A stretch of 64,000 bases of DNA from Muricea muricata (lineage: Eukaryota > Cnidaria > Anthozoa > Malacalcyonacea > Plexauridae), in the NCBI GenBank assembly GCA_963855995.1, contig OY979728.1, positions 2,156,330-2,220,329 on the forward strand. The letters are read 5' to 3'. Shown here piece by piece: positions 14,318 to 57,400 of this stretch. The position numbers were made by a program, and so were the translations under genes. Within the stretch, counting starts at the first letter, position 1, and every line of letters begins with the position of its first letter. The notes beneath the pieces are model-generated. The model was given only the letters and a program-made list of their open reading frames with translations. It ran no database searches and had not been told where the DNA came from.

Positions 14318-30248
<15,931 letters not shown>

Positions 30249-33436: not shown

Positions 33437-36400
33437 ATGAGTACTGAATTTTTGAATGCATGTGAAGCTGGCAACCTAAATGAAGTACTCAACATTCTCT
33501 ATTATCATGATAATGGACCAGTTAAGCTTCTCCAGACCGACCCAAATACTCTAAACCACATGCATTATTTTCATGCGGTATGCCTTAATGGACATACAGA
33601 CGTGGTTGAACAGCTGTTTTACTTTGATGTTGATGTAAATATGGATTCAGCATACGGTACGCCACTGGCTGTGGCTTGCCAGGGTGGGCATCTGTCAACT
33701 GTTAAAGCGTTAATTAAACACGGAGCGCAGATATTCGACCCGAACACCGATCCAACACTCACACCATTTTTTCAAGCATGCAAACATGGACACTTGGAGA
33801 TTTTGACTTATCTCATCGAGGAACGACCTGACATACTGATGTCTCTGGGATCACAGCTTTTAGTTGAAGCTTGTCGTGAAGGATTTCTAGAAATTGTTGT
33901 GTTACTGATATCGAAAAACATTGATATTGATGGTGAGATTCTTCACAACTCACCACCAAGAGAATCGATTCAATTTGACATGGCATTGGAGACACCGCTA
34001 CAAGCAGCATGCTCACAGAACCAGGTCGAGGTTGTCCAATATTTATTGCAAGAGCAAGTTGAAGTGACAGTCAGTGTTGTGCAGAAATATTATCAAGTCC
34101 TAGGGGAGGCAGTTAAAAGGTTAAAGTATACTTGTCTAGTTTTGTTGGTCACTGGTTTCTGGTTACCAATGCTTCAGTTGATTGGTCTGTTTAGTTCAGT
34201 TGATTGCACTCTGGTTAGTCCGGCACCTAAGTTGGTCTCATTGGTTAGCTCAGTTGGTTTGTGACTGGTTAATTCAGTTGTTTGATCACTGGTAATTTCC
34301 ACTTGTTGGTCATTAGTTTAATTCACTTCCATGGTCATTGGTTGGAGTCTGGTAACTTTCTCTGGTTGGTCATTGGTTAGTTCAGTTGGTTGGTCAATGA
34401 TTAGTTTAGTTGATTGGTTACTGCCTAGTTCAGTTGGCTAGCCAGCTCCACATGTATAGTTAATAACTGATTATAATAATTAATTTATTTTAAATAATTA
34501 ACCATTTAATACTAATGTTTTGTTTTTTATAGAAATTTCAAAGAACACAAGGGAAAACACAGGAAGAAGAAAACAGGGCAGAAACCAGCATTACAAGGAG
34601 ATTTCTCACATTCTAACTTCTATGACATTCACCGAAGTTGGTTTATAAACTATGCTGAGCAGCTGGTATCACTTGATCTTTCCAATAATCAACTACACAA
34701 CATACCTAAGGAAGTCTTGAATCTACCATCTCTCGTGGAAATTAATTTGTCCGCGAATAATTTGGTTGCGATACCAGAAGTTGAAAATGCGGAAGATTCA
34801 AGGTTAATTCCTTTATTAAATACTGTACCTTCTTTATTAGAAAAAAAAACATTAAGGCAAAGGGTACATGAAATTGTACATGACTTGAAATTCAAGCCAG
34901 GAACAGCTAAGAAAAAATCATCAACTCTAAGGTCCTGTGACCTGAATTGAATCAATGCCTTTGTACTGATGCCAGTGTGCACAATGCTCTGAGCTCTGAG
35001 CCTAGCTACACTCAAACATTCCAACCATCCCATTTTACCCGGAACTGTCCCGGTTTATAGACTATATTTTCCCTCTGTCCATTTTTATTCGATTTTCCCT
35101 GGCTAAGGGACAGCTTCCAAAGTTTTTTAATACAGTAGTTATGCAGTTCAAAGCTACCGCAAACAATTTCCAATTTTGTCGTTAATCGACTTGACTTTGA
35201 TTCTCATGAAGTGTGTTTTGTGATATATTTTGCATTCTCTACCCATTTTCATACGTTTTGTGTGAGTTACATGAAGTAATGTCAGTGTAAAGACTCAAAT
35301 AGGTACACTTTTTGCGGGTTGTTGGCCAAGTTAGTACGAGATTTTGGTTGGAATGTCATAGGCCACCCAAAAATACGAGGGTTTTTCACGTATATACTTT
35401 AATTCGATGTAATCTTGTCTCCATCAATCTTGTGAGAAAATGGTCCTTGTTATTTTTTCCAGGTTGGAAGAAATCTTAGCCCCTGCAAATCACCTCAAAA
35501 ATGTCCCCGCGTCATTTTTCAACATCAAAGAATTACGTCACCTCAATCTCGTAAACAATGACATCACCACGTTGCTGCCAAATGATTATGTCACAGAGCA
35601 GTTTGACATTGATGACGCAATGCACGATGACGTCATCTGGCAATGCTACTCGCTGAAGTGTTTAAACTTGGCGCGAAACCAACTCACTGCCATCCCGAAT
35701 GCAATTCACGCCGCGAACAGCCTGGAGAAGCTAGTGTTGTGCCAAAATAGGATCTCGTCATTTCCTGTGGGATGGAAATGCCCACTTGTAAGTACAAGCA
35801 GTTTCTTCGCAGAGTGTTTACCAAAAAAAATTAGCCAAACTTAATTCTTTTTTATATATTCGTTTTGTTTGAGCGCAGACGGACGAAGGCGAAGCAGTTT
35901 TGATAATGTAGACAAGGATGGCGTTTTTTACCTCACTTTACATAAATTTGTACAGAATAGAATGAAAAAATTAGCGACTGTTGTGCTCAGCTCTGTGTAC
36001 AGCGTGTTGTTTTGGTGTTCTCTTTTAAGTGTAGATGGCAAAAAACGCAAAAAAAAAACACGTACAAACAGATAAACTAAAAACTTCCCACTCAAATCCG
36101 ATTGGGAAAGTTACATACTGGGAAGAACCCGTCCAACAGACGCATTATGGGCTAGCCTGCACCACGTTTCGTGTGTTTAGCCTTCGCTTTTTTACCTTTG
36201 CGGAGTGCAGCTTTGATAAACGACGCTTGTTTCTGTGTCTTGACGACACAGGGCAAACGCCCTGGCAAAGTTAACGTAATTGTATAGATACTCGTGCAAG
36301 GTATACGGTGTCCTCAAATGAACTTAGTTTTCTTGAAATGTTTGAGATGAGGTCAAATTCAAATTCTGTTTATAACATCAGATCCTGTTTTTGTGTACAC

Positions 36401-39400
36401 AGCTAAAAATGAACAATCTGTTCTGGGCTGATGAAAACAGCATTGAACAATGTTTTGCTGCCCACATTGTTCAATGTTGTCAACAATATTGTTCAACATT
36501 GTTACACCTGATTGCAGGCTTGTTCAGGCTCAACAATACCGAACAGTATTGTTAACAACCTTGAGCAATGTGGGCAGCAAAACATTGTTCAATGCTGTTT
36601 TCATCAGGCCAGAACAGGTTGTTCATTTTTTGCTGTGTACTGCATTACCAACACGTGCAACTTACCGTACTTCAAGTTAATATACCCGTCTGAAACAACT
36701 TTTCTTCACTTCTAGAGAATCTTAAACCTGTCAAAGAATGAACTCGCAGACTTCAAGCAGTCCGTATTCAGCACGTGGACGCAGACACTGGTAGATCTAA
36801 ACCTCAGCCACAATAAACTCACGTCAATCTCGTGGGATATTTGTCAACTACAAACGCTGCAGCATTTGGATTTAAGTCACAACGCTATCGAGAACATGCC
36901 TTCGAAATCGTACTGGAAATGTTCGAGCTTGCGGAAGCTGAGTCTCGCAAACAATAAGGTAGCGCGGGGTTTTAGATTAGAGGGGTTCAGATTTGATTTC
37001 CTCTACCACTCCCGCTACCTTTTCCCAATTTTAAAACAATTTGATTGGTTAATCGTGTAGGTTCGGCAGATCTGATTGGCTGAAAGGTAGTTTAAGGTAG
37101 TGGTGGAGGCATTGGCAGCCAAATCTGAACCTCTCTATTATAAAGTGGGTAACCGGTTGAGTAGAGTAACCTTTCTTTCGTGAAATGCTGAAAACTTAAA
37201 TGTTACATGAAAGTTGATTGGCTGGACGGGGGTTTTTTCCAGCCAATCAAATTTCATTTAAAATCTCGAATCCTCATTTGACCTCATTATTTGAACTCGC
37301 ATCTTCGGGTTTCTCGACCACCGCTCTACCAATTGAGCTATCGAGCTAACTGGGATCGGTAGCGAGTCTTTAAGTGCATAAAATATTTTCGCGACACGCG
37401 CGGTTTCAATTCTATTTCACAACCATCCTTACAGGAAAGACTTGCTACCAGTTGGGTCAGTAGCTCAGTTAATAGCATCCTCTTCCCCATAGCCATTTTC
37501 CTTACCTGACGAGGGTGAATTGATACTTGATAGAGTAGCGGTCTAGAAACCCGAAGACGCGAGTTCAAATCTCGCTCGAGACAAGGAATCCATCATTGTT
37601 ACCTTCAATGTCAGATTCTGCGTACGCCCTCTGGAAATCCTCGAAATTTTTTATTTTAGTCCTAGAAAATCATTGAAAACCCGGCTGGAATTCTAAATTT
37701 ATCCCTTGAAAACCCGGCTGGAATTCTAAATTTATGCCTTGAAAACCCTGAAAAACTGAGTAACTGACCTGGGTATAGAATGGCGAGGCGAAGCCAGCCT
37801 GAGATTTGGTCATATGCAAATGTAAATTTTCTGTGTTTGTCTGTGTTTGTATACCGTATGTGGATTCAATTTCTAAAGAAATAAATAATGATAATGATTT
37901 AAATTTGCATAGCATGACCAAATTGTCGGGCTGGCTTCGCTACTCGAATCATAACGGAACTATTTAAGCCTACCTTAGAAGGAGAAGATAGCATAATTTA
38001 TGTAGCATTTCGTCGAGTATATCTCGCGGCTTTTCTTACAATCAAGTTCAAATACCTCTGGAAAACGTCTTAAAAGAGGACGAAAAAGTCCTGGAAAACC
38101 CTGGATTTTTAAAATTATGAAAGTATTCGAACCCTGGACTAATATGAATCAAGTCAGATACTAAATACCTCAAAAGTCGAAATTTATATAAAAGACATCG
38201 GATGCTGCACGCCCTCTGGCTTTTTATATGAAAGAAATCTTTCGTTCTGGCCCAGGGTCAATGTTATACAGCCTGAAGGGTGGAAGATTCTGCCACGCTG
38301 AGCATGTCGTGGAATGTTCTTGACTCGTGTAAATAATTTTACAGCTTTACGGAGTAAGCAGTCGAATTGAAACAGCGAGTCCACCAAGGAATTCTCGAAG
38401 GTTTACGATCGCTCGCTCTCCCACCGAGGAGAGGGTTGAAGTTGAGGACGAGTTTCCGTATGAGGTGTTTGGTGCAACGTTGGAAATCTTGGATTTGAGC
38501 GAGAATAATCTCGCTGCTGTTCCAAGTTCTGTTTGTCATTTGACTTCACTTGAAGATTTGAATCTTTCCGGGTAAGTTTTCAGGCACTCGTTTTTTCTGG
38601 ATGAAAAGCAGGTCACCCTAACTGGGATAGATCTATCCAGTATAAATAAAGTTAGTTTTGTTTAGCTTTCCTCCTGTAGTAACACTGGATCAACAAGAGA
38701 TGATCCTTATTGGACCTCTAGGAAGAACTGTTTAGAACTGGTAGAACTATCCAGTATAAATAAAGTTAGTTTAGTTTGGGTTTCCTCCTGTAGTAACACT
38801 GGATCAATAAGAGATGATGCTTACTGGACCTGTAGGAAGAACAGTTTAGAATTGATTGAGCTATCCACTGGAAATAGAATAAGTTTAGTTTAGTCTTCCT
38901 TTGGTAGCACTGGATCTGTCAAAAATGGTCCTTTCGGCTACATGACTATTAGGAAGAACAAATTATAATCGATAGAACCGAGAGATAGAATTACTGAACC
39001 TTTAGGTTGGGACGTTTCCAAACTCATCATTCTACAATATTTTTGACGAATTTCACTATAATAGTGGAATGGAAAGGTACCTGATGTACTGAGGTGTTTT
39101 GTTGATTGAATATTTTACAGGAACCGCTACTTGAAGACGCTACCTCCGGAGCTAGGCAACCTCACAGAATGTTTTCAATTGGGTTTGGATGGACTTCATC
39201 TCAGTGGCATTCCGAAATATGCAAGATCAGGTAGGTTTTTTAGCCCGTACAGTTAGTTTGCTCTGAAACAGCCCAAAAGCAAGCGATATCGCCGTTTCAA
39301 ATTAAAATAAACCTATAAAGGTGCTTTACACGTGTCTAACATTGTTTTAACGCAGATTTCTAACATGTACGGATATGTTTTATTGGTTTTAACACCCAAA

Positions 39401-42400
39401 TGTGTGTTCGAACATGTAATTTTAACACATACGGATGTGTTTCTTCGACACACATTTCTAACACCACCAGATGTCTTAACACGTTTTAACACGACAATGT
39501 GTAACTTTAACACATAAACATGTGTTTTTACAACACATTTCCAACACGATTAGATGTCTTATAAGTTTTAACTCGGCAATGTTTTTTCAACTAAAAACTG
39601 TAATAATATGATAATAAATTCTATCCAGGATACACATCGTCTAAGGATGTACTCACTTATCTGAGAGCTAAGCAAAGAAAAGCAGTTGCATATTACAGGA
39701 TGAAGTTGATGGTTATTGGTCTACAGGTACGAACGTCTTCGTGTGAATTTTACACATTGTTAATTTCAGGGAGTTTAACTCCACCAAAATGCAACAAATT
39801 TTCTGGCAAACTCCGAGTACGAAATAGTCTGTGTGAATTTTACACACTGTTAATTTCAAGAAGTTTAACTCCACCAAAATGCAACAAATTTTCTGGCAAA
39901 CTCCCAGTACGAAATAGTCTGTGTGAATTTTACTCACTGTTAATTTCAAGAAGTTTAACTCCACTAAAATGCAACAAATTTTCTGGCAAACTCCCAGTAC
40001 CAAATAGTCTACGTTCTGGTTTGTCATGCTGTCGCGAATTTGCAAAATTTACTTTGGATTTGTTTAGGGTCGTGGTAAGACATCGCTGCTTGCCGCCTTA
40101 CGAAATCAACCGGAGCCACCAAACATTTCCACCGTTGGCATTGTTGTTAACGAATGGACTGCTACTGGATCCCAGTCTCTTCGCGAAAAAGTTGTGACGT
40201 TTGGGAGGAGGGAGCAGGTAAGGGCGAGTGAGATTGATCCAACCAGAGGCCCCCGCTGACGTTAAGTATTGTATTCCACTCTCCTCGCAGAGGCAGGATT
40301 ACACGGCCAAAAATGAACAACCTCTTCTGGGCTGATGAAAACAGCATTGAACAATGTTTTGTTGGTAATATTGTTCAACGTTGTCAACAATACTGAACAA
40401 GTTGTTGAGCCTGAACTAGCCTGCAATCAGATGTAACAATGTTGTCATTACAATATTGTTGACAACCATGAACAATGTGGCGGCAAAATATTGTTCAATG
40501 CTGTTTTCATCAGGCCAGAACAAGTTGTTCATTTTTGGCTGTGTAACAGACGTGATGAAATTGACAAGTTTGATACAACTTGTTGACAATTTGCAACAAG
40601 CCGATTAAATTGACGACTTGCAACAAGTCTGTGCTTTCTTGGCCGTGTACAACAACGGGTTACTTAAAGTAGCTAATTGCAAGCATTACCTGTGCATGTT
40701 CGACTAATATTTATCCTCTGTTTTTTTTTACATTTTCTTAGAGTAATCCGGCTATTACATTCAGTACATGGGATCTGGCAGGACAACAGATCTACTACTC
40801 TACTCATCAGTGTTTTCTTTCATCCAACACGCTCTACCTTGCTGTCTGGAATGTTTCAACAGGCGAAGAAGGAATTGATAAGTTGAAACCTTGGTTACTT
40901 AATGTACAGGTTAGAGCAAAGTGAAACGTATTATTTGATATTCTACCCTCATGTCATTCTACCGTCATGTTTGTTTGAAGACAAGGGTTGTTACAACTGT
41001 TAAGGAGAAAAACATTAAATATTCATGAACACGTATTACCCCTGCATTATTTAACCGTGCTTAACTCAGCAGTGAGTTCTGTACAACATCAGATCACTTT
41101 AAGATAGCTCTCATTCAAGAACATGTACTACCTCTGTATGATCTAACCATGCTTAACTCAGCAATGAGTTCTGTACAAAATCCGATTACTTTAACATAGC
41201 TCTCATTCAAGAACATGTACTACCTCTGCATAATCTAATCATGCTTAACTCAGCAGTGAGTTCTGTACAACATCAGATCAATTTAACATAGCTCACATTC
41301 AAGAACATGTACTACCTCCGCATGATCTAACCATGCTTAACTCAGCAGTGAGTTCTGTACAACATCAGATCAATTTAACATAGCTCACATTCAAGAACAT
41401 GTACTACCTCCGCATGATCTAACCATGCTTAACTCAGCAGTGAGTTCTGTACAACATGTACAACTGTATCACTTTAAGATAGCTCACATTCCAGAACATG
41501 TGCAACCTCTGCATGCTTTAACTATGTTTAACTCAGCAGTGAGTTACTGTAAAACTAAACTGGTCTTTGTTTTAGGCCCGTGCTCCAGGTTCTCATGTTA
41601 TTATCGTTGGAACTCACGTGGACCTTTTGCCCGCAGCAAGCAAAGCCAGAAGAATAGACGAGCTTCTCCTCACTATTTCCAAACGCTACAACAAAAAAGG
41701 TTTTCCAATCCTCAAGGGTTATTACATGGTTTCGTGTAGGACTCGTGAAAACATGGTGGAACTACGACAAGCTATTTATCAAGCAGCCTTGGAATTGAAG
41801 GAGACAGAAAGCTTAGGAAAAGGAGAGTCCTTGATTGGTCGAAAGGTACGTAGCGTTAGTTGCGAGCAATGACGAGCACTCGCGCAAAGTTAGAAAAGAC
41901 AGGTTTCTTAAAAGATATATGGAAAGCCATAGCTGTGTTAAGTGATAAAACGTCATTTCATTAGGTGCTTTATACATTATATACGGTGCTTTAAACATGA
42001 CATGCGGTGCTTTGAGTATTATATGCGGTGCTTTAAACATTATATGCGGTGCTTTGAGCATTATATGCGGTGCTTTAAGCATTATATGCGGTGCTTTAAA
42101 CATTATATGCGGTGCTTTAAACATTATATGCGGTGCTTTAAACATTATATGCGGTGCTTTAAACATTATATGCGGTGCTTTAAACATTATATGCGGTGCT
42201 TCGAGCATTATATGCGGTGCTTTAAACATTATATGCGGTGCTTTGAGTATTATATGCGGTGCTTTAAACATTATATGCGGTGCTTCGAGCATTATATGCG
42301 GTGCTTCGAACATTATATGCGGTGCTTCGAACATTATATGCGGTGCTTTGAACATTATATGCTGTGCTTTGAGCATTATACGCAGTGCTTTCATCATTAT

Positions 42401-45400
42401 ACGCAGTTATTTCATCATTATACGCGGCGCTTTCATCATTATATGCGGTGCTTTCATCATTATACGCGGTGATTTCACCTTTGTACGCGGTGCTTTCATC
42501 ATTATATGCGGTGCTTTCACCTTTATACGCAGTGCTTTGAACATTATACGCGGTGGTTCCAGCGTCATTATACTCAGTGAGCCAGTACCTTTGGTCAGCG
42601 TTGTGGAATGTTACACGATTCTGCTATACGTCATGTCATCAAGAATATCTAAACACTCATCGAATATTCATAGGGCGATCACGTGTCATTTCCTGCTTGG
42701 AAATTTACTAGTTGAGCGCAGTTATAAAACGGTAAAATATATAAGACTTTTCTGGCGTTTTAAATCCAGGGGGTTTGAAATATGGAACAAATACTGCAAT
42801 CTTTAAATTTGGGGACTTTGCGTGGCCGATTTGAAGCACAGCGAATAGAACCGCAGGCAGTTTTAAATTTAATGCGAAATTTTGAAAAATTTTGGGAAAA
42901 AATTTTGAAAAAAAATTTGGGAAAAAAATTTGAAAAAAAATTCGGGAAAAAATTTTGGCAAAAAATTCTGAAAAAAATTTGGGAAAAAATCTTGAAAAAA
43001 AATTCTGGAAAAAATTTTGAAAAAAAATTTGGGAAATTCATGAATAATTCATGAATATCATGAATAATTCATGATAATTCATGAAAAATATTGGGGAAAA
43101 TTTTGAACCAAAAAATTTGGGAAAAAATTTTGAAAAAAAATGTGGGAAAAAATTCTAAAAAAAAAATTTGGGAAAAAATTCTGAAAAAAAAATTGACAAA
43201 AATATTGGGGAAAATTTTGAACAAAAAATTTGGGAAAAAATTTTGACAAAAAATTCTGAAAAAAATTTGGGAAAAAATCTTGAAAAAAAATTCTGGAAAA
43301 AATTTTGAAAAAAAATTTGGGAAATTCATGAATAATTCATGAATAATTCATGATAATTCATGAAAAATATTGGGGAAAATTTTGAATAAAAAATTTGGGA
43401 AAAAATTTTGAAAAAAGTTTGGGAAAAAAATTTGAAAAAAATTCGGGAAAAAATTTTGACAAAAAACTTTGACAAAAAATTCTGAAAAAAATTTGGGAAA
43501 AAATCTTGAAAAAAAATTCTGGAAAGAATTTGGAAAAAAAATTTGGGAAATTCATGAATAATTCATGAATATTCATGAATAATTCATGATATTTCATGAA
43601 TAATCATGAATAATTCATGAAATCATGAATAATTCATGATCATGAATAATTCATGAATTTTTCAGGAAAAAATCTTGAAAAAAATTAGGAAAAAGTTTTG
43701 ACAAAATTTTTTTTCCCAATTTCTTTTTCAAAATTTTTTCCTGAATTTTTTTTCAAGATTTTTTCCTGGAAAATTCATGAATTATTCATGAATTTCATGA
43801 ATTATTCATGATATCATGAATTATTCATGATTTCCCAAATTTTTTTCAGAATTTTTTCCCAAATTTTTTTTTCAAAATTTTTTTCCCAAATTTTTTTTAA
43901 AATTTCCCAAAAAAATTTGGGAAAAAATTTCGAAAAAAAATTTGGAAAAAAATTCTGAAAAAAAAATTTGGAAAAAGAATTCTAAAAAAATTTGGGGAAA
44001 AATTTTGAAAAAAAGTTTGGGAAAAAAAATTTGAAAAAAAAATTTGGGAAAAAAATTTGAAAAAAAATTAGGAAAAAGTTTTGACAAAAAAATTTTTTCC
44101 CAATTTCTTTTTCAAAATTTTTTCCGGAATTTTTTTCAAGATTTTTTCCTGAAAAATTCATGAATTATTCATGAAATATTCATGAATTATTCATGATTTC
44201 CCAATTTTTTTTCAAAATTTTTTCCAGAATTTTTTTGCAAGATTTTTTCCCAAATTTTTTTTTCAGAATTTTTTGTCAAAGTTTTTTGTCAAAATTTTTT
44301 CCAGAATTTTTTTTCAAATTTTTTCCCTAACTTTTTTCAAAATTTTTTCCCAAATTTTTTTTCAAAATTTTTTCCCGAATTTTTTTCAAATTTTTTTTCC
44401 CAAATTTTTTTTCAATTTTTTTCTCATTAAATTTAAAACTGCCTGCGGTTCTATTCGCTGTGCTTCAAATCGGCCACGCAAAGTCCCCAAATTTAAAGAT
44501 TGCAGTATTTGTTCCATATTTCAAACCCCCTGGGTTTACTTTCGATTTAAAACGCCAGAAAAGTCTTATATATTTCACCGTTTTATAACTGCGCTCAACT
44601 TGTAAATTTCCAAGCAGGAAATGACGCGTGATCGCCCTATGAATATTCGATGAGTGTTTAGATATTCTTGATGACATGACGTATAGCAGAATCGTGTAAC
44701 ATTCCACAACGCTGACCAAAGGTACTGGCTCACTGAGTATAATGACGCTGGAACCACCGCGTATAATGTTCAAAGCACTGCGTATAAAGGTGAAAGCACC
44801 GCATATAATGATGAAAGCACCGCGTACAAAGGTGAAATCACCGCGTATAATGATGAAAGCACCGCATATAATGATGAAAGCACCGCGTATAATGATGAAA
44901 TACCTGCGTATAATGATGAAAGCACTGCGTATAATGCTCAAAGCACAGCATATAATGTTCAAAGCACCGCATATAATGTTCGAAGCACCGCATATAATGT
45001 TTAAAGCACCGCATATAATGCTCGAAGCACCGCATATAATGTTTAAAGCACCGCATATAATGTTTAAAGCACCGCATATAATGTTTAAAGCACCGCATAT
45101 AATGTTTAAAGCACCGCATATAATGATTAAAGCACCGCATATAATGCTTAAAGCACCGCATATAATGCTCAAAGCACCGCATATAATGTTTAAAGCACCG
45201 CATATAATACTCAAAGCACCGCATGTCATGTTTAAAGCACCGTATATAATGTATAAAGCACCTAATGAAATGACGTTTTATCACTTAAGACAGCTATGGC
45301 TTTCCATAAAGATAGGTTGGAATAGAGCAGCTTAGTAATAAAAAATCCTATGCATGAGATCGATGTCGTTAATACACTGGAAATTGTATTTACATTGTCA

Positions 45401-48400
45401 AAATCTTCTTGGTTTACATTGTTATGTTTTTTAAAAGATTCCTCTTAGCTACCTCAAACTACAAGCGAACGTGATTAAAGAAGCTGAACGACGAAAGAAA
45501 GAGAACAAACCTCCGATCCTGAACGAAGAGCAAATGTTAGAGCTAGCAAAACAAGATCCAAACAATGATATCGTAGAGAGAGATGAGCTTATTCTCGGTA
45601 AATGCACATAAACAGACACCCTGTTCTGCTAATTCCCTTGTTGTTCACTTTGGGCATGTTCTTGAGCGGAAAAGTTATCTGGGTTGGCGAGAAAATGTTT
45701 CATATGAACGCAGTGTAACTTTCCACGTTTTTTTTTTCACAACGAGCTGAGATGTCGCTTGAAAACGTCGAAATGTTTTCTCGCTAACCGAAGTAAAGTC
45801 TGCCCATATAAACAGTTTGATTGATCAATGTCTCATTGATCTATTATCTTTATTGCTTGATCTTAATCTTAATCAGAACCACTTGATCGTAATCGTAATC
45901 ACATAATATTAATAATCTATCTTTAATCTTAACCGCTTAATCTCAGTCACTTAATCCTTATCGTTTAATCTTCATTAAGCTGCAAGGTTTCTTCACGAGA
46001 ACGGAGTAATCCTACACTACAATGATCGATCACGAGGACTTGACAAGCTTTATTTTATCGAGCCTGGCTGGCTATGTGAAATAATGGCACTGCTTGTCAC
46101 TGTCAAGGAAACCAACACATTCGTCAAAGGAGGGATTATAGAAAGATCCAACGTCAGTTTGTTGTTGAAAAATCCAAGATTACCACCTGAATTTATGGAT
46201 CAGGTACGTTTGTGAATCCAAGATGATTTAATTTCATTATTTTATGCTGGAAGGCTTTAGTACAGGACGAAATATAAACTAATTTCATTTAATTTATACT
46301 GGATAGTTCTGTCAGTTGTAGACTGTTTTCGTGGAGGTCCAGTAAGGATTACCTCTCATCCATCCAGTGTTACTACAGGAAGAAACCTAAACTGAACTGA
46401 TTTTATTTATACTAGATAGCACTGTCAATTCTAAACTGTTCTTCCTAGAGGTCCAGTAATGATCATCTCTTATTGATCCAGTGTTACTACAGGAGGAAGC
46501 CTAAACTAAACTAACGTTATTTATACTGGATAGCTCTATCAGTTCTAAACTGTTCTTCCTAGAGGTCCAATAAGGATAATTTCTTATTGATCCAGTGTTA
46601 CTACAGGAGGAAACCTAAACAAAACTAACTTTATTTATACTGAATAACTCTCCGTAAGTTCTAAACTGTTCTTCCCAGAGGTCCAGCAAGGATCATCTCT
46701 TATTGACCCGGTGTTACCGCAGGCGTAAAACCTAAACTAACCCAACGTTATTTACTATTCCAGTACATTCAGTTAATGGAAAGGTTTGAAGTTGCGCTGA
46801 CTTTAGACGAGCACCGTTTATTGGTTCCCTCGATGTTACCACGTGATAAGCCTGGCTTGCATTTTGCTGACCTCAGCAGAATGTTGAGCATGAGAAACAA
46901 AGGTCTCCAAACAGTACCAGAGGATGCAGACAGTGACAGAGAGAGTAAAAGTAAGAATGAATAATTGTGAACTAGCGTGAATTGTGAACCAAACTTCCCT
47001 TCCGGGGCTGGGTAATCTCTTAACGGTCTACTCGAGTTAAGGCACATTTATCAGAAACATTGAAGGCTCTTCGTCCGGCCAAAGTTCTGCTCACTTGTCG
47101 ACCAAGGGCCTTTGCTCGAAATATCGAATTCTGTTTAATCGTTACAGACAGTGAAATAACATATACCTTTCGTGTACGAAGAGCAGATTGATCAAATAGA
47201 CACAATCGACTAACGTTTGTTTACACTCTTGCCACCCATTTTTGTATCTGCGAATGCAGATATATTGCTATCGTGCGCGTGCTGTTAGCTGTTAGCTGTT
47301 AGCTGTTAGCTGTTAGCTGTTAGCTGTTAGCTGTTAGCTGTTAGCTTGTAGCCAATCACCGAATGCGTAAGTTAAAAATAGCCAATAGTCGAGAATATAA
47401 CATTAAAATGACGTATTACTTAGTGACCATTCAGACCATAGTATGTTTAACTGGAGCGATATTCCAAATTCCAAAATGGCGTCTGCCAAGGCTGTTAAAT
47501 AGTGAAGAGTTAAGCCTAACTGGACAAGGACTGCTTAGGTTTTTTGAACTGAAGACTTTTCGTAGCGTGACTGGATATTCTATTTCTATTGTAAATATGT
47601 CTAAGCAAGATGATGGTTCGATAACTGGGGAAATATTGCATCGGTTGGATTATCCATCTGTTTACAACAGTCAACAAACCGATTTGACAGAAGCAGTGAC
47701 ATTGATACAATGATAATCAAGGTACACTAACAACATGGACAACATGTACGTAATTTTTAGGAGTCCAGTTAACTTGTTTAAAACAGGTTTGAGTATACTG
47801 TATGTTTTGATGGATGGGCTTGTTGTTTTCATTATGTGCATTGCGTGTCAGTTTCACTAGTTCTGCTTGCAGTGTACACTTGCATTATTACACTTCTAGC
47901 ATTTGTCTGTGATTGCACTTATTTGGGACACACCTTATGCTTGTATACAATTTCTTGAACTTCTTGTTCTTTTGAATAGACAGTCAATTCATCAATTTGA
48001 GTATTTTTTCTCTGATTCAATTTTAAATGTATATATCATGTATAGAAACCGTGTACCAGCACATAGTAGTACTCATGCTCAAAGTCTATTAATGCTTAGA
48101 TCTGAAATCTGAATAATAGGCCGACATTTTCCCTTGGGTAGTAATATCAGCTTGAGTTGCCTTATTTGTTAAATCTGAATCACCAGCAATTGCATTGAAA
48201 CAAAAATATATTCATATGAGACAAAGCTAATTTTGCATTATTGATTGATGTCAAATTGATCACCAGTTAATCTGCTGCGATCTGTTGCACTAATTTGATA
48301 GTTCAGAATGACTCGATTCCAAGGTCACTTAACAGATTTAATTTGTTCTAATTTTAAATACACCTTGAATATCTTAAACAATATAATGAATTACAAATTC

Positions 48401-51400
48401 ACATTTTTGTTCAGCCTGTTTTGTTTGCTGAAGTTATATTCTAACTTGTCCCATGTGTATACAATCATGCATTTCTACGCATGTATAAATTCGACCGAAT
48501 TAAAAAGCATTCCAAAGGGTCTACTTTTTTTATACATTCTGTAGTAAACCATATTTGTAAAACTAAAGTTATTCGATTTATGCATTGTATACTCGACATG
48601 TTTTTTTTATATCGAATTTTAAAAATAACAATTAATAGCCATTGATATCCATGCAAATTTGGTTCAAACAATTGTGATAAATGTTAAAATATTTCAAGTA
48701 TTTATCTCTGAAATGATACTGTTATCAAATTTTTATGTTATAATCATTTAACATGTTTTTATTAAAAAGTTTATATTATACAGTAATAATTTCAAACACA
48801 TTGGACTATTTATTTCAATATTTATTGCAATCATTCTACTACATATTTATGCTGTGCGCAGCTACCTGTACACGTAGCGTACCTTTTTTTCGCAGATACA
48901 TGTACGCATAGCGTGCCTATTTTTGTATCTGCGAATGCAGATATATTGCTATCGTGCGCGGGCTGTTAGCTGTTAGCTTGTAGCCAATCACCGAATGCGT
49001 AAGTTAAAAATAGCCCATAGTCGAGAATATAACATTAAAATGACGTATTACTTAGTGACCATTCAGACCATAGTATGTGTAACTGGAGTGATATTCCAAA
49101 TTTCAAAATGGCGTGTGCCGAGGCTGTCAAAGAGTGAAAAGTGAACTGCTTAGGTTTATTGAACTGAAGACTTTTCGTAGCGTGACTGGATATTCTATTT
49201 CTATTGTAAATATATCTAAGCAAGATGATGGTTCGATAACTGGGGAAATAGTACATCGGTTGGATTATCCATCTGTTTACAACAGTCAACAAACCGATTT
49301 GACAGAAGCAGTGATATTGATATAATGATAATCAAGGTACAATAACAACATGGACAACATGTACGTAATGTTTAGGAGTCCAGTTAACTTGTTTAAAATG
49401 AGTTTGAGTATACTGTATGTTTTGATGGATGGGCTTGTTGTTTTCATTATGTGCATTGTGTGTCAGTTTCACTAGTTGTGCTTGCAGTGTACACTTGCAT
49501 TATCTAGTATTTGTCTGTGATTGCACTTATTTGGTACACACCTTATGCTTGTATACAATTTCTTGAACTTCTTGTTCCTTTGAATAGTCAGTCAATTCAT
49601 CAATTTGAGTATTTTTTCTCTGATTTGATTTTAAATGTATATATCATGCATAGAAACCGTGTACCAGCACATAGTAGTACTCATGCTCAAAGTCTATTAA
49701 TGCTTAGATCTGAAGTCTGAATAATAGGCCGACATTTTCCCTTGGGTTGTAATATCAGCTTGAGTCGCCTTATTTGTTAAATCTGAATCGCCAGCAATTG
49801 CATTGAAACAAAAATATATTCATATGAGACAAAGCTAATTTTGCATGAATGATTGATGTTAAATTGATCACCAGTTAATCTGCTGCGATCTGTTGCATTA
49901 ATTTGATAGTTCAGAATGACTCGATTCGAAGGTCACTTAACAGATTTAATTTGCTCTAATTTTGAATGCACCTTGAATATCTTAAACAATATAATGAATT
50001 ACAAATTCACATTTTTGTACAGCCTGTTTTGTTTGCTGAAGTTATTCTAACTTGTCCCATGTGTATACAATCATGCATTTCTACGCATGTATTTATTCGA
50101 CCGAATTAAAAAGCATTCCAAAGGGTCTACTTTTTTTATACATTCTTTAGTAAACCATATTTGTAAAACTAAAGTTATTTGATTTATGCATTGTATACTC
50201 GACATGCATTTTTATATCGAATTTTAAAAATAACTATTAATAGCCATTAATATCCATGCAAATTTGGTTCAAGTATTTATCTCTGAAATGATACTGTTAT
50301 CAAAATTTTATGTTATAATCATTTCACATGTTTTTATTAAAAAGTTTATATTATACAGTAATCATTTCAAACACATTGGACTATTTATTTCAATATTTAT
50401 TGCAATCATTCTACTACATATTTATGCTGCGGGCAGCTACCTGTACGCGTAGCGTGCCTTTTTTTCGCAAATACATGTACGCATAGCGTGCCTATTTTTG
50501 GATTATTCACATGGTTGGATACCATTGTCCTGGTTTGCGGAATAGTGCATTAAGGCGAAAGTAACCAGGCATACGAATGATGAATACGAGTTATTCACTC
50601 ATGTCCATGCTTTTAATTGCGTAGCCACTTTTGAAAGAATCTATATCTTTCATGTACGAAGAGCAAATTGATCAAAACGACAATTGGTTATGAACAAGCG
50701 TTAGCCGATTTTGTCATTTGGTGATCTTTAACTTTCTTTATATCGCTTACAAAAACCAGCTGTGTGTTGTGTAAAATGCGTTTGCTAGTGCTGCAAACAG
50801 GGATTGTATCTTGACGACCTGAGTTTTTACTCTAAACAATGGTGTTTCTAAAGTGGCATTGAATAAACAAGAAAGAAACTCCGGGGAGTCTTTATTAACA
50901 TGTCCAACCAGCTCATATCATGCTGCTTTATTTGTTTACGTCGAGAATTGCCTAAATGTGAACGTGCCGATGTTATAACACAGGATAAAGTACCGGTTGT
51001 TTTTCAACTGCCGCAGCTAGAAAGGTATAAAAAGCAATGACACCTGGAATATTGAACTTACAAGAGATAAAAAGTGACTTTAACTTGAAAATGCCGAACT
51101 TTCATGAATGCATTTTACCAGTTACTGAACATGTTTAGAAAGCTTGAAAAATTATGTAGATGCTTCTCCTTGGAACTGTTCAAAAACAATATATATTTCT
51201 GGCGGGCGAACGCTTCTATTCAGTAAGTGTGCTAAGCGACGAATTATGACGAAAGAAAAGAGACACTTACACAACAAACACTGCAGATGATGATCTTATC
51301 TTCTGTGCTTACTTTTGAATGATTATAGTGTTGTTATGTTTTAACATAAAATGCCGTTAATTTTCCGCTCTTTTGCGGTCAATTAAAATTCTGTTTGTTT

Positions 51401-54400
51401 TACCCATCTGCCCTTTCTTCCGTACTAATACGAATTTTCTCTGTCGGAACACTGCGTGCTTTTTGATAACAACTTTCGGTTTGACTTGAGGCTTTCGTTG
51501 TGTGGGTACTACAGACTGTATTTCTCCAATTCTCAAACGTTCGCCGTTGCGACGTTCTATCGTTTTTCCGTGTCCTAAATTTACTCCAATGATCCTCTTC
51601 TGGCGAAATTTAAGATGTCTTACACGAAAACTCGGCCGTTTTGTTGCCACAGTGCAGTTTTCTACCAACAGATGTTTCTCATGCTTGATTTCATCTTTGT
51701 CGTCGCACATCGAGTGGTGTTGATAGAGGATATAAAAACATAAAAGCAGCATCAAGGCTGCTTTTATCCCTATTCCACACTCCCTTTTCAATCTAATCCA
51801 TTTCAGCATTGCGAACAATTCGAGAAGTTATAATCTTGTCTCTTAGCTCATGACAAAGCGCTACAACGATATAACGAAGCGCGGTTTTTGATTTTCAAAC
51901 ATTTATTATGTAATGTACATCTTGTTGTGGTCATTATATACAGTAGGGTTCCTAACCACAGGCGTTTTGGACTCTTGATTGTTATTCAAACAGGTGAACC
52001 CATCCTTATGGTAATTTGTATTTATAATATATATAGGTTATCACATGAGGGGCCAGGTGATATCAGTTTTATCGCTTGAGGGACGATATCATAAATCTTA
52101 CGAGTGAGCGCAGCGAACGAGGGACAAAATATGATAGCGTAATGAGAGCGATAAAACTGATGTTACCGAGCCTCGAATGTGATAACCTATTTATCACATA
52201 CTTGTGCCTTTATCAGAGCTATTCAGGGGCGAAAATCAGATTTTATTTTTTCTAATTATAAATAATTTGATTTCATTTCCGAATGAATGCAAAACATTGT
52301 AAAAAATACGTTAAACAGCTAAAACTTTGCAAAAACAAGGCAAGAGTAACTTATCTTTTTACAGTTACAGATATCTTTCTGTTATTGGCCTTCCATCATA
52401 ACATATTTTGCTCATCTTTGTTTTTGCAGCGGGACAAAAAACGATATCACCGGGATATGTCGTTTTTATGTCACCCTGTTTATCACCCTGATAAAGGTGC
52501 AAGTATGTGATACTGACTTTTATATGTCTTGGTGTTATCTGCTCAGGTGGAAATGATGTTTGTAGTGTTACTCTGAGTTTATATCCACACCGGGCACTAA
52601 AGCTGAAAAATATGCCTGACCACGATTGTAAATGAACCTACAACCAATGCCTTTTATTCGCTGGTGAACACAGAACTCAAAGTAACACACACTTGATCAA
52701 AGTATATATTACGACACTAAGAAAGTCTATTAAATTCCAGTCAGGACGCTGGAAAATAAATTCGTATCTTTGGCGCGCACGACGTATAAAATGCTCTGTG
52801 CATTTTTCGACAGGTCCAAAGACTGGCGGCTCACACGAATACCTTCGTCGTCACTACAAGATGAACTATGTGCCCAGCGGTTTCTGGAGTCGTCTCATTG
52901 CTCGACTCATGATAGCCGTGCAACGCTGGGGAAGGGAGGAGGGGCTTGGTGACGAGCTTATCTGTGACGAAGGAGGAAAAGATGTTCGTTCCTCGTCGCA
53001 TTTCCGGCCTCTTCCCCATGGTTACTCCATGGTCTACTGGCGTCAAGGGATGGGGGTTGTTTATATTGGTGGACATCTGGTGGTCGAATCTCACGCTGCC
53101 AAGGTAAGGTGCTAGGGCTGTCCTCATTGGGCTTATAAAATCTCAAAAAATGCTAAAAAAAATCAAAGAAGTAACTATACAGAAACCTTTACCAGCAGAC
53201 AATTTAATAAAATATAAGAAAAGACATACTCCGAAGAACAACATCTTGTAAACTCGTGATATGAGCTATTAACAACAAGACAACCGTTTTGCGGTGATAT
53301 TTAGACTCTATTTTAAGGTGATTGTCAAACCAGAATAAGCTATTTACAAGCTTGCTATCATACTATATACAAAGAAACAGGGAAAAAAATGACATTGTTT
53401 GTCCATAGTATAGTGTTACATTACTATTATGTCATTTCTTCCTGTTTCTTTGTATATAGTATGATAGCAAGCTTGTAAATAGTTTATTCTGGTTTCACAA
53501 TGACTTTGAAATAGAGTCGAAATATCACCTTAAAACTGTTGTCTTGTTGTTAACAGCTCATATCTTGAGTTTACAAGATGTTGTTTTTCGGAGCATGCTT
53601 TTTCTTGTAACTATACAGTCTATAGCTTTATGTTGCTGCCCTTGCAGCGTTTCTCTAAAGGTACCAAAGAATGGTGGCAGTTCGATTAAGGGAGAGGTTC
53701 AGACTTCCTCTACCACTACCGCTAACTTTTCCCGATTTTTAAACCACTTGATTGGTCAGTCGGGTAGGTCCGGCACATCTGATTGGCTGAAAGATAGATT
53801 TAAGTAGTAGCGGTAGAGGTATTGGAAGCCAAATCTGAACCTCCTAAGATTGATACACAGTCAGAAACACAACAGACTTGATGAAAGTTGAGAATTTTTA
53901 TTCGTCATCAAGTTGCTTCAAGCTTGCTGACTTCATCAAGTTGCATCAAGCCTGCCTGTGAAAATCAGACTTGATGCAACTTGATATTTGCAGACTTGCT
54001 GCAAGTTGTTAAAACAACTCACATCAAGATTGCGAATAAAAATTCTTGATAATCAACTTGCATCGATCCCGGTAACATTCACAGTTTCGGTAGCATTTAC
54101 AGGTATGCTTGCAAGAGCTCTCCCACGAAAATACCTTTAATCTATCTGTATTTGCGTTAGTAAGTACAGATTAAATAGCATGGGATAATTTTTCCTTTAG
54201 GAAAGAAACGCTTACACTGGAGCTTTAGAGGACGTTGAAGGTGTCATGGTAACAGTTTGGTCAGAGGCGAAAGACTTCTCAGTTTTAGGTTTTGTCACAG
54301 ATCAGATCAATTCTCTCATAACGGAATGGTATCCAGGTATGAGCGAAGTTTTACTTTGCGAGCAAAAATTATCCATTAAAGGGAAATAGCAACAAAAATT

Positions 54401-57400
54401 TTTATTGTCTCATTTGAAAGAGACTCTAAAAATGATATATAGAAGTCTTTTACAAAATTTTTGTATCTATTTTACTTTTAGAGATATTGTCATTTGAATA
54501 ATCGGACTGTCCGCCATCTTGGATTAATTTTTAACCTCATTAAGAATGTTTTGGTGACGTCACAACAGGGATAAGCCATTCAAAGCTTCTTCTAAATACT
54601 TACCACCAATGGAATATGTGTGAAACCTTTTCAGTCCGTGCTGAAATCCGAAACACTTACCATGTGTGTGGTTAATGAAGAAGATTAATCATTGTGCCGT
54701 AAGAAAAAAAAATTGCGTGACCCCAGTTGTGACGTATCATGCATATCTACAAATATCCAAGATGGCAGAGAACTAAAGATTTCAAGTCAAAATATCTCAC
54801 CAAATAAGGCAGATATAAAAATTCTATAATAGACTTCTATATATTGTTTTGGAGTCTCTTTCAAATAAGATGATAAAAAATTTTGTCGCCATTTCCCTTT
54901 AAACAAAAAGTGCCATTTATGTAAACCAAATTTTTGTGCTGGATATAGCTCTGTCATGTCTGAACTGTTCGCTTCGAACTAGGGCTGTTTTTTAGGCTCG
55001 ATTTTTACAGGGGTAGGTTGTCCGAAATGTGGGTAGCGCCATCCACTGGATAGTGATTTTTCAACTGCCGCAGAAAGTTATGAAAAGCAATGACGCCAGG
55101 GATATTGAACTCGTAAGAGATCAAAAGTGACTTCAACTCGATAATGCTGAACTTTAATATGGGTTTTACCTGTCACTGAACACGATTAGAAAGTTTGAGA
55201 AAATCACTTTCGGCTGGATGTATAGCCCTATTCACCTCTCCTACAACCTACCCGTGATGTGTGTAAGTTGTATCACAACTTGTATCACAAGCGTCTTAAC
55301 AAACTGTCAAAAACAGTTATGTGCGCACTGTTTGTCCCAAGTTATTGTTAATGAATCGTAACAAGCTTGAAGGGAATATTTGACTTGTTACAAGGTTGCC
55401 GCCCTGACTCCTAGCAACTGGTTAGCGCGTTACCCTCGATCTTAGTGGTGAAAGGTCATTGCTTTCGATTGATCACCGAAATGACACATATATACTCGAA
55501 ATTACAGAAACGCGCAAGAAATCCTAAGCAAAACATTTCAGAGGTATTTCTCTGTTGTAGGTTTGGAAGAAAGCGACAAGCATGGAATTCCTCTCGTGCG
55601 TCACGTGATACCGTGCCCGCAGTGCACGGAACACGGCGCTCCCTTGTACAGAATGCGCAGATCTATATCAATGCGGAGTGTCAACGAAATAGAGGAAAGC
55701 AAACCATCAGAGTTTTCGTTGATGGAATGTGCCGCTGCTGCTGTCGAGTACACGGAGATAGCTTGCCCTTATCACGTGAACAGCCCCGTGAAGTTACGTA
55801 ACCTCGTTCCTGATTTGGTGCTGTCTGATTTACCACCAGAGTTAGCCATTGATAATAAGGTCAGTCTGAGAGGAGTTAGGTTTGATTAGAATTGAAACTG
55901 AAACTGTAAACTTAAACCCTCGTCTCTAGAAAGCTACAAGCAGTAGAGAAGCCTGCCCGACGATTTGGTCATGCTGTGTAAATTTAAATCATTATCATTA
56001 TTCATTTCTGTAGAAATTGATTCCTTATTTACGGTCTATAAACACAGAAAAAATGCATGACCAATGTCGGGCTGGCTTCGGCACTGGCTACAAGTGTAGT
56101 CAACAGGAATAAACAGTTTTCTGTGTTTATCTAAGGTGTTCGTGTTCAACCCAAGTGAGGAAAATCGTCTGGGAAGTGGAGGTGCTGGCGAGGTGTTTTT
56201 AGGAATGTACAAGAAAGAAAAGGTTGCCGTGAAGAGATTTTATTCATCAAACGGCACGAGGTAAACTGTGGGTGATAACTTTATTTCAAGAAACTTAACT
56301 GATCGTCCATGAAGAGAAACTCTTTCAACGTCAACTGAGCTAAAAAACATTGTGAAACTCATTGATATTCGATGAGAAAACAAAAAAGAAATCATGAGTG
56401 TGAAGGAGTCTGTTATATATTTAAGGATTGTGTCATTTGTGTGCATTCAGCCAGTGCGTTGTTTGCAAACAAAACACGAACTAAACAGTCTCTAAACCAT
56501 TTTATCATATGATCTGAGTTCACTTCTTGCAATAATTTAAATACCGTGCGCCTACATCTTTGCTTAGCTTATTTACCTCGAAAAACTGCAATGCTCCACA
56601 TTGTTTCCCTGTTCGTAGTTTTAGCAACTGTTGATTTGTGCAGTTAAAAAAGATGTCAAAACTCCGATACAGAATTCTGTTGATTTCGTAAACTTTGACT
56701 TTGATTTTCTCGCCTTTTAATATATGATGTCTTATCAAAATTTCTTCGCAGATAAATCTATAAAATCGAGGAGTTTCTCACATGCTATTTATAAAATTAG
56801 CGTCCTTGTCGTATCAGATAAGCAAATCTCTCCTTCGGCTCTGGTTTATATTTAAGAAATATAAAACATTTTTCCGTGTTGATATACAGTTATATCAACA
56901 CGAGTGGAATTGGGAAACGAGAAATTGTATAGAAGCCCGAAGGGCGGAGTGTTTTCATACAATTTCGAATTTTCCTGACTTCCACGAGTGTTGATATAAC
57001 TGTATATCACCACGGAAAAATGTTTTATAATTTTTTTATAATATAGCAATGTCAAAAGCCCGAAGGATACGAAAAATGTCCGTGTTTACAAGTGGCAGGA
57101 AATTTTCCGTGTTTACATTGAGTTATGTAAACACAGCTCTAAACCAATCAGCGTTCAGGATTCACAAATGCTATGTTATAAATGCTGATACAACACGGTC
57201 GCTCATGTTGTGGTTTCAATTTCTTTTTGTAGTTTTGATAGTGGCTTGGGTTCGAATTTTAGTCTTGGTAAACGAGGAGGCAGTCGTAACACTGATGTTG
57301 GATCATTTTCTGGTCGTAATCGTGCGTTTACTGTCACTCCGACCACGATCGAAGAAGATTTGAGAAGAACTAAAATATTGTCATCCTTCATGGAACTACG

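Follow-up and report, generated by a model that had tools for sequence, protein, structure and literature searches.

A satellite-armed foldback element, probably of the IS3EU/GingerRoot kind, in an LRRK1-like intron of Muricea muricata

Long arms built of tandem repeats are known from several Drosophila transposons. The repeats of Galileo, a foldback-like element of the P superfamily, hold extra transposase (THAP) binding sites (PMC3688188). Tetris of Drosophila virilis is a non-autonomous foldback with tandem-repeat arms, accompanied by the MITE DAIBAM, which shares only its ends; it is putatively a Mutator element with target-site duplications (TSDs) of 8-10 bp, for which no autonomous relative is reported (PMC4079207). 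For Pack-TIR elements, the FoSTeST model has replication switch templates at microhomology within a terminal-inverted-repeat (TIR) transposon, the product then being amplified by transposition (PMC8277862). Elements of the IS3EU group have TA..TA ends and usually 6-bp TSDs (PMC10045372); fungal members end in TAYGG..CCRTA and, where they bear TET, the gene opposite the transposase is an alpha-kinase (PMC12730594). Our search of the open-access literature returned no foldback form of IS3EU; the only paper with both terms was an oyster satellite study, where IS3EU is named in a table and foldback turns up in a cited reference, and no paper linked HECT, IS3EU and transposase.

Here we describe a palindromic insertion in a 64,000-nucleotide window of Muricea muricata (GCA_963855995.1, contig OY979728.1, positions 2,156,330 to 2,220,329; the window is this whole stretch). 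We hold with considerable confidence that it is a non-autonomous foldback of the IS3EU/GingerRoot kind which arose by folding back at a right end, is mobilised in trans and sits as a passenger in an intron. It shares with IS3EU/GingerRoot the ends TATGG..CCATA (found in the window element and all four of its transposase-bearing relatives), the 6-bp TSD and, in the relatives only, a DDE transposase without a zinc-finger match, as expected of a group whose transposase lacks an N-terminal HHCC zinc domain, with a second gene opposite the transposase in three of them (L040-L042). It differs in that this second gene is SAM/HECT-like and that the arms are long 21-bp satellites. Long tandem-repeat arms are common to Galileo as well, but the superfamily is another one, the four relatives' transposases giving no THAP or P-transposase Pfam match, and binding of the satellite by the transposase is putative here. 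Compared with Tetris/DAIBAM, the present genome does hold transposase-bearing relatives. A replication template switch at microhomology, as in FoSTeST, may have been involved, but whereas a host gene is captured there, the switch here would have been onto the element itself, yielding a palindrome.

The inserted element and its host intron

The initial annotation had placed an inverted repeat flanked by AAGATA at 41918..45308, and both coordinates and flanks proved correct: the 3.4-kb element runs from TATGGAAAGCC.. to ..GGCTTTCCATA, and AAGATA abuts both ends (Table 1). Aligning 41918-42874 with the reversed 44435-45308 gave 856 of 863 positions identical (7 substitutions), and an ungapped self-alignment covered 729 nt at 96% complementarity. 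The arms differ by one 84-nt (4 x 21 bp) satellite length change and by an 11-nt deletion in the left unique block, which neither the right arm nor the other copies examined share; one more gap, of 10 nt at the end of the alignment, stems from the choice of arm cut points. The near-identity of the arms that had been claimed stands, but over ~0.87-0.96 kb and not 1.6-1.7 kb. Likewise, satellite, unique block and A-rich/T-rich core are all present as annotated, but the core is built from nested A-rich/T-rich palindromes with TTCATGAA and is not a plain extension of the arms. With no transposase of its own, and long inverted tandem-repeat arms around a variable middle, the element has the structure of a foldback.

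Table 1. Features of the inserted element and flanking exons (window positions)
Feature	Position	Strand	Basis or detail
LRRK1-like exon 5' of the intron	41576..41845	+	ORF read visually; probable donor gtacgt at 41846
Target-site duplication, left copy AAGATA	41912..41917	.	flank comparison
Left terminus, TATGGAAAGCCATAGCTGTGTTAAGTG (TATGGAAAGCCATAGCTGTCTTAAGTG in transposase-bearing relatives)	41918..41944	+	first 16 nt genome-wide
Left-arm 21-bp satellite, V (variable-length) arm, 28.2 units, consensus GGTGCTTTAAACATTATATGC	41964..42555	+	
Left unique block, by alignment upstream region and first ~28 codons of IS3EU-type SAM-like gene	42568..42868	+	ATG at 42782
AT-rich core (A+T 80%) of nested palindromes, A-rich and T-rich, that contain ATTCATGAAT	42875..44437	.	
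Right unique block, S (constant-length) arm, by alignment an inverted copy of the SAM-gene 5' end	44438..44741	-	
Right-arm 21-bp satellite, 24.2 units	44755..45262	-	
Right terminus, ..GGCTTTCCATA	45282..45308	-	
Target-site duplication, right copy AAGATA	45309..45314	.	flank comparison
LRRK1-like COR-A exon	45979..46215	+	PF16095 E=9.2e-9

The host gene, judged by its kinase exon (LRRK1 at 1.2e-24 vs LRRK2 at 1.7e-17) and the COR-A exon, is LRRK1-like, as first annotated; the exon 5' of the intron has no Pfam match of its own. Nearly all of the ~3.6-kb intron is element, and ~0.2 kb would be left without it (splice sites were placed by eye and are uncertain). The insertion, probably a passenger without a host function, makes the intron longer and would add a very long hairpin to the pre-mRNA.

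A young family and its transposase-bearing relatives

The junction between arm and core occurs 201 times in the genome at <=2 mismatches (control 0), which corresponds to about 100 copies of the window element, and the first 16 nt of the terminus occur at 315 places at <=1 mismatch (control 2). Of 354 candidates 21 were scored, and matches to the window element fell at 21 places (grouped by eye). Perfect 6-bp TSDs, at different sites, flank 17 of the 20 copies with both ends and flanks; two more agree at 5/6 positions and one, L015, has none. Outside this count are L022, one end of which is damaged, L028, which lies at a contig edge, and L029, on account of its right flank. L032, L034 and L035 show no TSD at their exact ends. 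That the element moved in as a unit, as had been proposed, is thus upheld by its TSD and its multicopy family, and a lone assembly artefact is rejected on the many independent copies with distinct TSDs. The arm on one side is constant, at 573-576 nt to the unique block in 21/21 copies, and the other ranges from 555 to 912 nt (18 measured, leaving out L015, L022 and L028); the core ranges from ~1.1 to ~6.0 kb (18 measured, leaving out L012, L019 and L028). Over the 304-nt block, copies differ from one another at a mean of 2.87 positions and the two arms of one copy at 2.25, and we reject homogenisation of arms within copies on this comparison. The window family, hereafter foldback 2, is young and has recently multiplied to ~100 sites.

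Four elements of 5.0, 6.4, 8.7 and 15 kb are bounded by the 16-bp terminus of the window element, and all have 21-bp-period arms and hold an rva_4 transposase (E 1.6e-72 to 4.7e-79) with a D..D(34)E triad. Profile searches found weak HTH matches in front of these transposases, and no zinc-domain or MULE match in any of the four. Among the transposases, 5/6 pairs have saturated dS with dN of 0.20-0.39. The 15-kb element has a 6-bp TSD, and in the other three all 5 right-flank bases compared agree with the left TSD. Four ORFs scanned in the 5-kb element (L040) matched rva_4/HTH, SAM, HECT and, weakly, PAH, with no polymerase or capsid among them. Among 100 of the 315 terminus places we found no transposase-bearing element with arms of the window subfamily, the nearest being ~70-82% identical. 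Its termini and 6-bp TSD, together with the transposase carried by relatives that share the 16-bp terminus, lead us to assign the element to the IS3EU type, Pfam rva_4 presumably being the IS3EU transposase.

Right-end origin of the arms

All four transposase-bearing elements carry a SAM-like ORF, read inward from the right in three of them; in the 15-kb element it lies mid-element, on the transposase strand. HECT-like exons follow it in both elements tested. The Pfam SAM scores are 23.2 bits (L042), 22.1 (L033), 20.2 (L040) and 17.7 (L041), of which only that of L042 passes the cut-off of 23. In L040 the unique block of the window element finds a match (71%) at the right end alone; in L042 it matches in full on the right-hand gene (70%) and with just its first 85 nt also at the left; BLASTN found no match to it in the right end of L041. 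The peptide encoded in the block shares 23/28 residues with the SAM-protein start of L040, 23/28 with L042 and 16/28 with L041; the scores are 113, 116 and 80, where the best shuffles reached 40, 42 and 44. Taken alone, the 35-aa start of the SAM-like ORF has no Pfam match and gives nothing meaningful by BLASTP against the SAM ORF of L033, and 31 aa of it find nothing in PDB at E 10. In shuffle tests against L033, 23/2000 shuffles reached the score obtained with the entire ORF (the best local match there fell outside the SAM part) and 11/2000 that obtained with the SAM part. The question that L033 left at the level of suggestion was settled by the comparisons with L040 and L042: the window arm carries the start of the SAM gene. 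By alignment, then, each arm of the window element reproduces the right end of an IS3EU-type element, and the unique block, for which the initial annotation gave no explanation, is the 5' portion of a gene carried by the transposon.

In a second foldback (foldback 1, L043-L045) each arm still has ~256 SAM codons, and a single-copy loop of 177 nt lies between the two. L044 and L045 have ~1.5-kb arms and a 5-nt inverted repeat, TGAAC/GTTCA, where the sequence turns back; in L043 this centre lies in the opposite orientation. Its arms are the closest relatives of the window block that we found (94.5-97% in the block). Foldback 1 is older than foldback 2 and appears to preserve the fold-back step, its centre being such as fold-back DNA synthesis would leave, and we infer that fold-back replication was the cause.

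We propose that the lineage began with two-gene IS3EU-type elements with 21-bp-period satellite arms, the transposase gene being read from the left and the SAM-like gene from the right (as in 3/4 relatives). DNA synthesis proceeding inward through the right end would have folded back within the SAM gene, primed at the 5-nt inverted repeat, so that the right end was copied again in inversion and the transposase gene was lost, leaving a palindrome both of whose ends were usable (foldback 1). In a derivative or sister that is mirror-symmetric about an AT-rich core (foldback 2), only about the first 28 codons of the SAM gene would have remained, abutting this core. The SAM segment stops at one and the same codon in both arms of foldback 2. 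A simple central deletion within foldback 1 would not account for this, and a second inverted duplication or a similar event is required for the last step. Recognition of foldback 2 in trans by an IS3EU transposase may then have allowed its recent spread to ~100 sites, the host intron included, and the satellite units most likely serve as additional binding sites for the transposase, two helical turns apart.

Several other histories could be imagined. It is quite possible that foldback 2 stems from a separate right-end fold-back, independent of foldback 1, since its arms share an end codon and its core is mirror-symmetric, as if arm and A-rich core had been copied together in inversion; against this, no closer relatives of its arms were found than those of foldback 1. 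Alternatively, gene conversion might have acted between an ordinary left end and an ordinary right end and so made the arms alike, and some end homogenisation does occur in the group, the two ends of L041 being 92% alike over ~590 nt. But the shared terminal repeat of L040 does not include the SAM-gene segment, this segment stands on both sides of foldback 1 right up to the loop with the 5-nt inverted repeat at its edges, a centre of a kind that conversion would not normally leave, and the two arms of one foldback-2 copy differ nearly as much as arms taken from different copies (2.25 vs 2.87 differences), so we consider conversion quite unlikely.

The initial annotation likened the element to Drosophila FB, and the likeness holds for the architecture, long tandem-repeat inverted repeats around a variable middle. 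Most described foldbacks have moreover been placed in Mutator (PMC4079207). Kinship with FB or another Mutator-superfamily foldback is nevertheless very improbable, being contradicted by the IS3EU-type ends, by TSDs of 6 bp vs the 8-10 bp given for Tetris in the same source, and by elements with the same 16-bp ends whose transposase is of the rva_4 DD34E type without a MULE match. To a remnant of a Polinton/Maverick, which would have long terminal repeats and the same TSD length of 6 bp (PMC10045372), we give practically no credence and reject it, given the TA..TA ends and the lack of a polymerase or capsid match among the four ORFs scanned in the compact L040.

Predicted hairpin RNA and the birth of foldbacks

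Folding of the intron into double-stranded RNA, which the initial annotation expected over about 1.6 kb, is physically plausible on the predicted pairing: 867 pairs are predicted between the first and last 960 nt of the element, with a longest perfect helix of 280 bp. The hairpin may, as first suggested, be a substrate for ADAR or small-RNA processing. In each copy of the element the control region and opening codons of the SAM-like gene of IS3EU elements occur twice, both facing inward. One may speculate, though we think it unlikely, that the foldback burst acts as a built-in RNA-interference brake on its own helpers, in addition to competing for transposase at the ~50 satellite sites of each copy. 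If this were true, convergent or hairpin transcripts of ~100 young copies, some of them in expressed genes such as the present host, would yield double-stranded RNA matching the 5' end of the SAM gene.

To our knowledge, the origins of foldbacks have so far mostly been inferred from end products. One genome here holds transposase-bearing relatives, an older foldback with a readable turn-around point and a young derivative of ~100 copies, and with these three stages side by side the birth of a foldback by fold-back DNA synthesis at one end becomes directly testable. The element would add a foldback form to the IS3EU kind, and the 21-bp-period arms common to its transposase-bearing and parasitic members point to a code by which the ends are recognised.

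Anatomy and relatives of the palindromic element

The 3.4-kb insertion in the LRRK1-like gene is a real, non-autonomous foldback of the IS3EU type, and its ancestry is readable in its own genome. The element ends in TATGGAAAGCC and its inverse, with AAGATA flanking both sides, and each arm runs from the outside inwards through a ~27-nt end, a 21-bp satellite and a ~300-nt unique block to an AT-rich core (80% A+T), which contains ATTCATGAAT. The initial annotation had this anatomy right, from the inverted arms to the target-site duplication (TSD), and the near-identity of the arms is borne out at 856 of 863 aligned positions, the arms differing by 84 nt of satellite length and an 11-nt deletion. 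In the predicted RNA fold of the gene strand, 867 base pairs join the first 960 nt to the last 960 nt, the longest perfect helix measuring 280 bp. The likeness to Drosophila FB elements was mistaken as a family assignment, the element being IS3EU-type. IS3EU elements are described as ending in TA..TA and making TSDs that are usually 6 bp long (PMC10045372), and the ends of fungal members are given as TAYGG..CCRTA (PMC12730594).

Relatives were found by crossing a transposase search (at least 118 matches, with 111 of 1140 candidates scored) with the first 100 of 315 places carrying the 16-bp terminus, on contigs C1 to C7. Among the matches listed, at least four elements combine this terminus at both ends with an internal rva_4 transposase (Table; Pfam E-values 1.6e-72 to 4.7e-79), and in all four the D, D and E residues have 56 and 34 residues between them. 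Helix-turn-helix matches N-terminal to the catalytic core are weak, below Pfam cut-offs, and in L041 a weak SAM_2 match (E 0.047) lies ahead of them. Between subfamilies (five of the six transposase pairs) dS has reached saturation, with dN values of 0.20-0.39; the L040 and L042 transposases are nearly identical with a dN/dS of 0.59, so that constraint is not demonstrated by that pair alone. The 15-kb element has the TSD AAGAAC, and for L040, L041 and L042 all five right-hand TSD bases fetched agree. Among these relatives, taken from the first 100 of 315 terminus places, the comparison revealed no helper whose arms have the sequence of the window element.

The host gene comprises ankyrin and LRR ORFs, a COR-A exon and kinase exons, and its kinase piece is closest to LRRK1 among PDB entries (1.2e-24; LRRK2, 1.7e-17). 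The insertion nearly fills a ~3.6-kb intron, leaving ~0.2 kb (splice sites placed by eye, uncertain to a few bases). Gene content identifies the source as an animal. Other repeats of the window are included in the Table.

Table. Locations of the element, its relatives and other repeats
Feature	Location	Size	Description
Window element	window 41918-45308	3.4 kb	foldback 2, LRRK1-like intron
L040		5.0 kb	TATGGAAAGCCATAGC both ends, rva_4
L041		6.4 kb	TATGGAAAGCCATAGC both ends, rva_4
L041 segments	L041:643-2001; L041:2992-5678		IS3EU-type element, second gene SAM/HECT-like
L042		8.7 kb	TATGGAAAGCCATAGC both ends, rva_4; nested retroelement
L038+L033+L039		15 kb	TATGGAAAGCCATAGC both ends, rva_4; nested LINE-like ORF
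L030	C1:116264025-116265003	939 bp	TSD GTCCTC/GAGGAC
L031	C1:116582788-116583135	308 bp	TSD GTCCTC/GAGGAC
L034	C1:51279018-51280794		20-nt flanks identical to L035
L035	C1:87728100-87729695		20-nt flanks identical to L034
Tandem repeat, three places in gene region	window 38626-38976; 46257-46754; 57478-58124	114-bp unit	both orientations
Direct duplication	window 47330-48928; 48962-50503	1.6 kb	92.7% identical
MITE-like palindrome, two copies in gene region	window 36395-36640; 40299-40546	~248 bp	ends GTACACAGCTAAAAATGAAC and TTACACGGCCAAAAATGAAC
Single palindromes	window 53213-53609; 22109-22459; 56847-57045; 8697-8881	0.2-0.4 kb	possibly other MITEs

Origin of the arms

In L040, L041 and L042 a SAM-like gene lies on the strand opposite to the transposase and is read inward from the right (SAM_1 E-values 7.9e-4, 4.7e-3 and 9.3e-5, only L042 passing the Pfam cut-off), and downstream of it both elements tested, L040 and L041, have HECT matches above the cut-off (2.1e-5 and 5.2e-7). 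We found no E3-ligase-like passenger in IS3EU in the open-access literature searched. The window block has a single match in L040, at the right end (71%), and matches L042 in full within the right-hand gene (70%), with no more than its first 85 nt also matching on the left. Its ORF, MEQILQSLNLGTLRGRFEAQRIEPQAVL, shares 23 of 28 residues with the SAM-protein starts of L040 and L042 and 16 of 28 with that of L041 (scores of 113, 116 and 80, respectively, against shuffle maxima of 40, 42 and 44), and the ATG is kept in 41 arms of 21 copies of the young family, foldback 2. Judged by these sequence comparisons, both window arms are right ends of IS3EU-type elements, although two observations count against this reading: BLASTN gives no match between L041 and the window block, and the 15-kb element has its SAM-like ORF at a central position, encoded by the same strand as the transposase.

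How a right end could come to face itself may be readable in an older foldback, foldback 1, in which the SAM gene faces itself (INTERMEDIATE) at no fewer than three places, L043, L044 and L045 (SAM protein search; at least 98 matches, 85 of 472 candidates scored). L044 and L045 share flanks and the TSD CTCAAA and are thus one insertion, duplicated later; L043 lies at a different site and its right end is incomplete. The arms are ~1.4-1.5 kb long and 93-94% identical, with blocks 94.5-97% identical to the window's, and each holds ~256 SAM codons (in L044, ATG at 948 and arm end at 1716). At the centre, 177 nt of the SAM gene occur as a single copy between a TGAAC and a GTTCA; L043 has the same centre, but reversed. 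At the matching point the L040 sense strand reads GACAGTTCAATG and the palindrome GACAGTTCACG, diverging after GTTCA, with L040 a relative rather than the actual parent and the length of overlap at the turn approximate. Such a centre is the trace that a nascent strand would leave if it turned back on itself at the TGAAC/GTTCA 5-nt inverted repeat. For Pack-TIRs, the proposed origin is a template switch at microhomology within a TIR transposon and subsequent transposition (PMC8277862). Because the two arms of foldback 2 break off at one and the same codon, this family needs an additional inverted duplication or some other step.

Spread of foldback 2 and its probable mobilisation in trans

The initial annotation had suggested looking for further copies, and across 453 Mb in 74 contigs a first search matched at least 21 places (21 of 354 candidates scored; grouped by eye). 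With at most one mismatch, the 16-bp terminus is present at 157 + 158 places (control 0 + 2), and the arm/core junction, with at most two, at 99 + 102 (control 0), the latter indicating about 100 copies. Their spread was recent, since the 304-nt block differs between copies by a mean of only 2.87 positions (41 arms, 21 copies). Among 20 copies with both ends and flanks, the TSD is perfect in 17, agrees at 5 of 6 positions in two and is missing in one. In every one of 21 copies, the distance to the block is 573-576 nt in one arm; in the second arm, measured in 18 copies, it is 555 to 912 nt. The amplified palindrome thus had distinguishable arms, and it is found in either orientation. Core length ranges from 1.1 to 6.0 kb in 18 copies measured, and core accounts for most of one 10-kb copy.

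Foldback-2 junctions are rare on contigs C1-C3, the largest three, with ~57% of the bases: of the 100 exact junctions listed (perfect matches only, the list ending in C10), 6 lie there. By contrast, these contigs hold 104 of the 118 transposase matches listed (counted by eye; at least 118 in all), and the young foldbacks thus seem to occupy other parts of the genome than the potential helpers. L030 and L031, with matching flanks, are apparently the same insertion site in an inverted duplicate, and their interiors differ, as if the contents had changed after duplication. The shared flanks of L034 and L035, 36 Mb apart on the same contig, suggest segmental duplication.

The 21-bp period and a related unit are common to the subfamilies examined (window, CATTATATGCGGTGCTTTAAA; 15-kb element, CATTATATTGAGTGGTTTCAG; L040, CATTATACGCAGTGCTTTTAG). 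Because this period equals two helical turns and is kept despite sequence drift, it suggests that the units form a putative row of binding sites on the same face. In Galileo, the tandem repeats have been shown to hold transposase-binding sites (PMC3688188). A palindrome that retains two complete ends and many sites would make a good substrate in trans, and we infer that transposase binds foldback 2 and mobilises it in this way.
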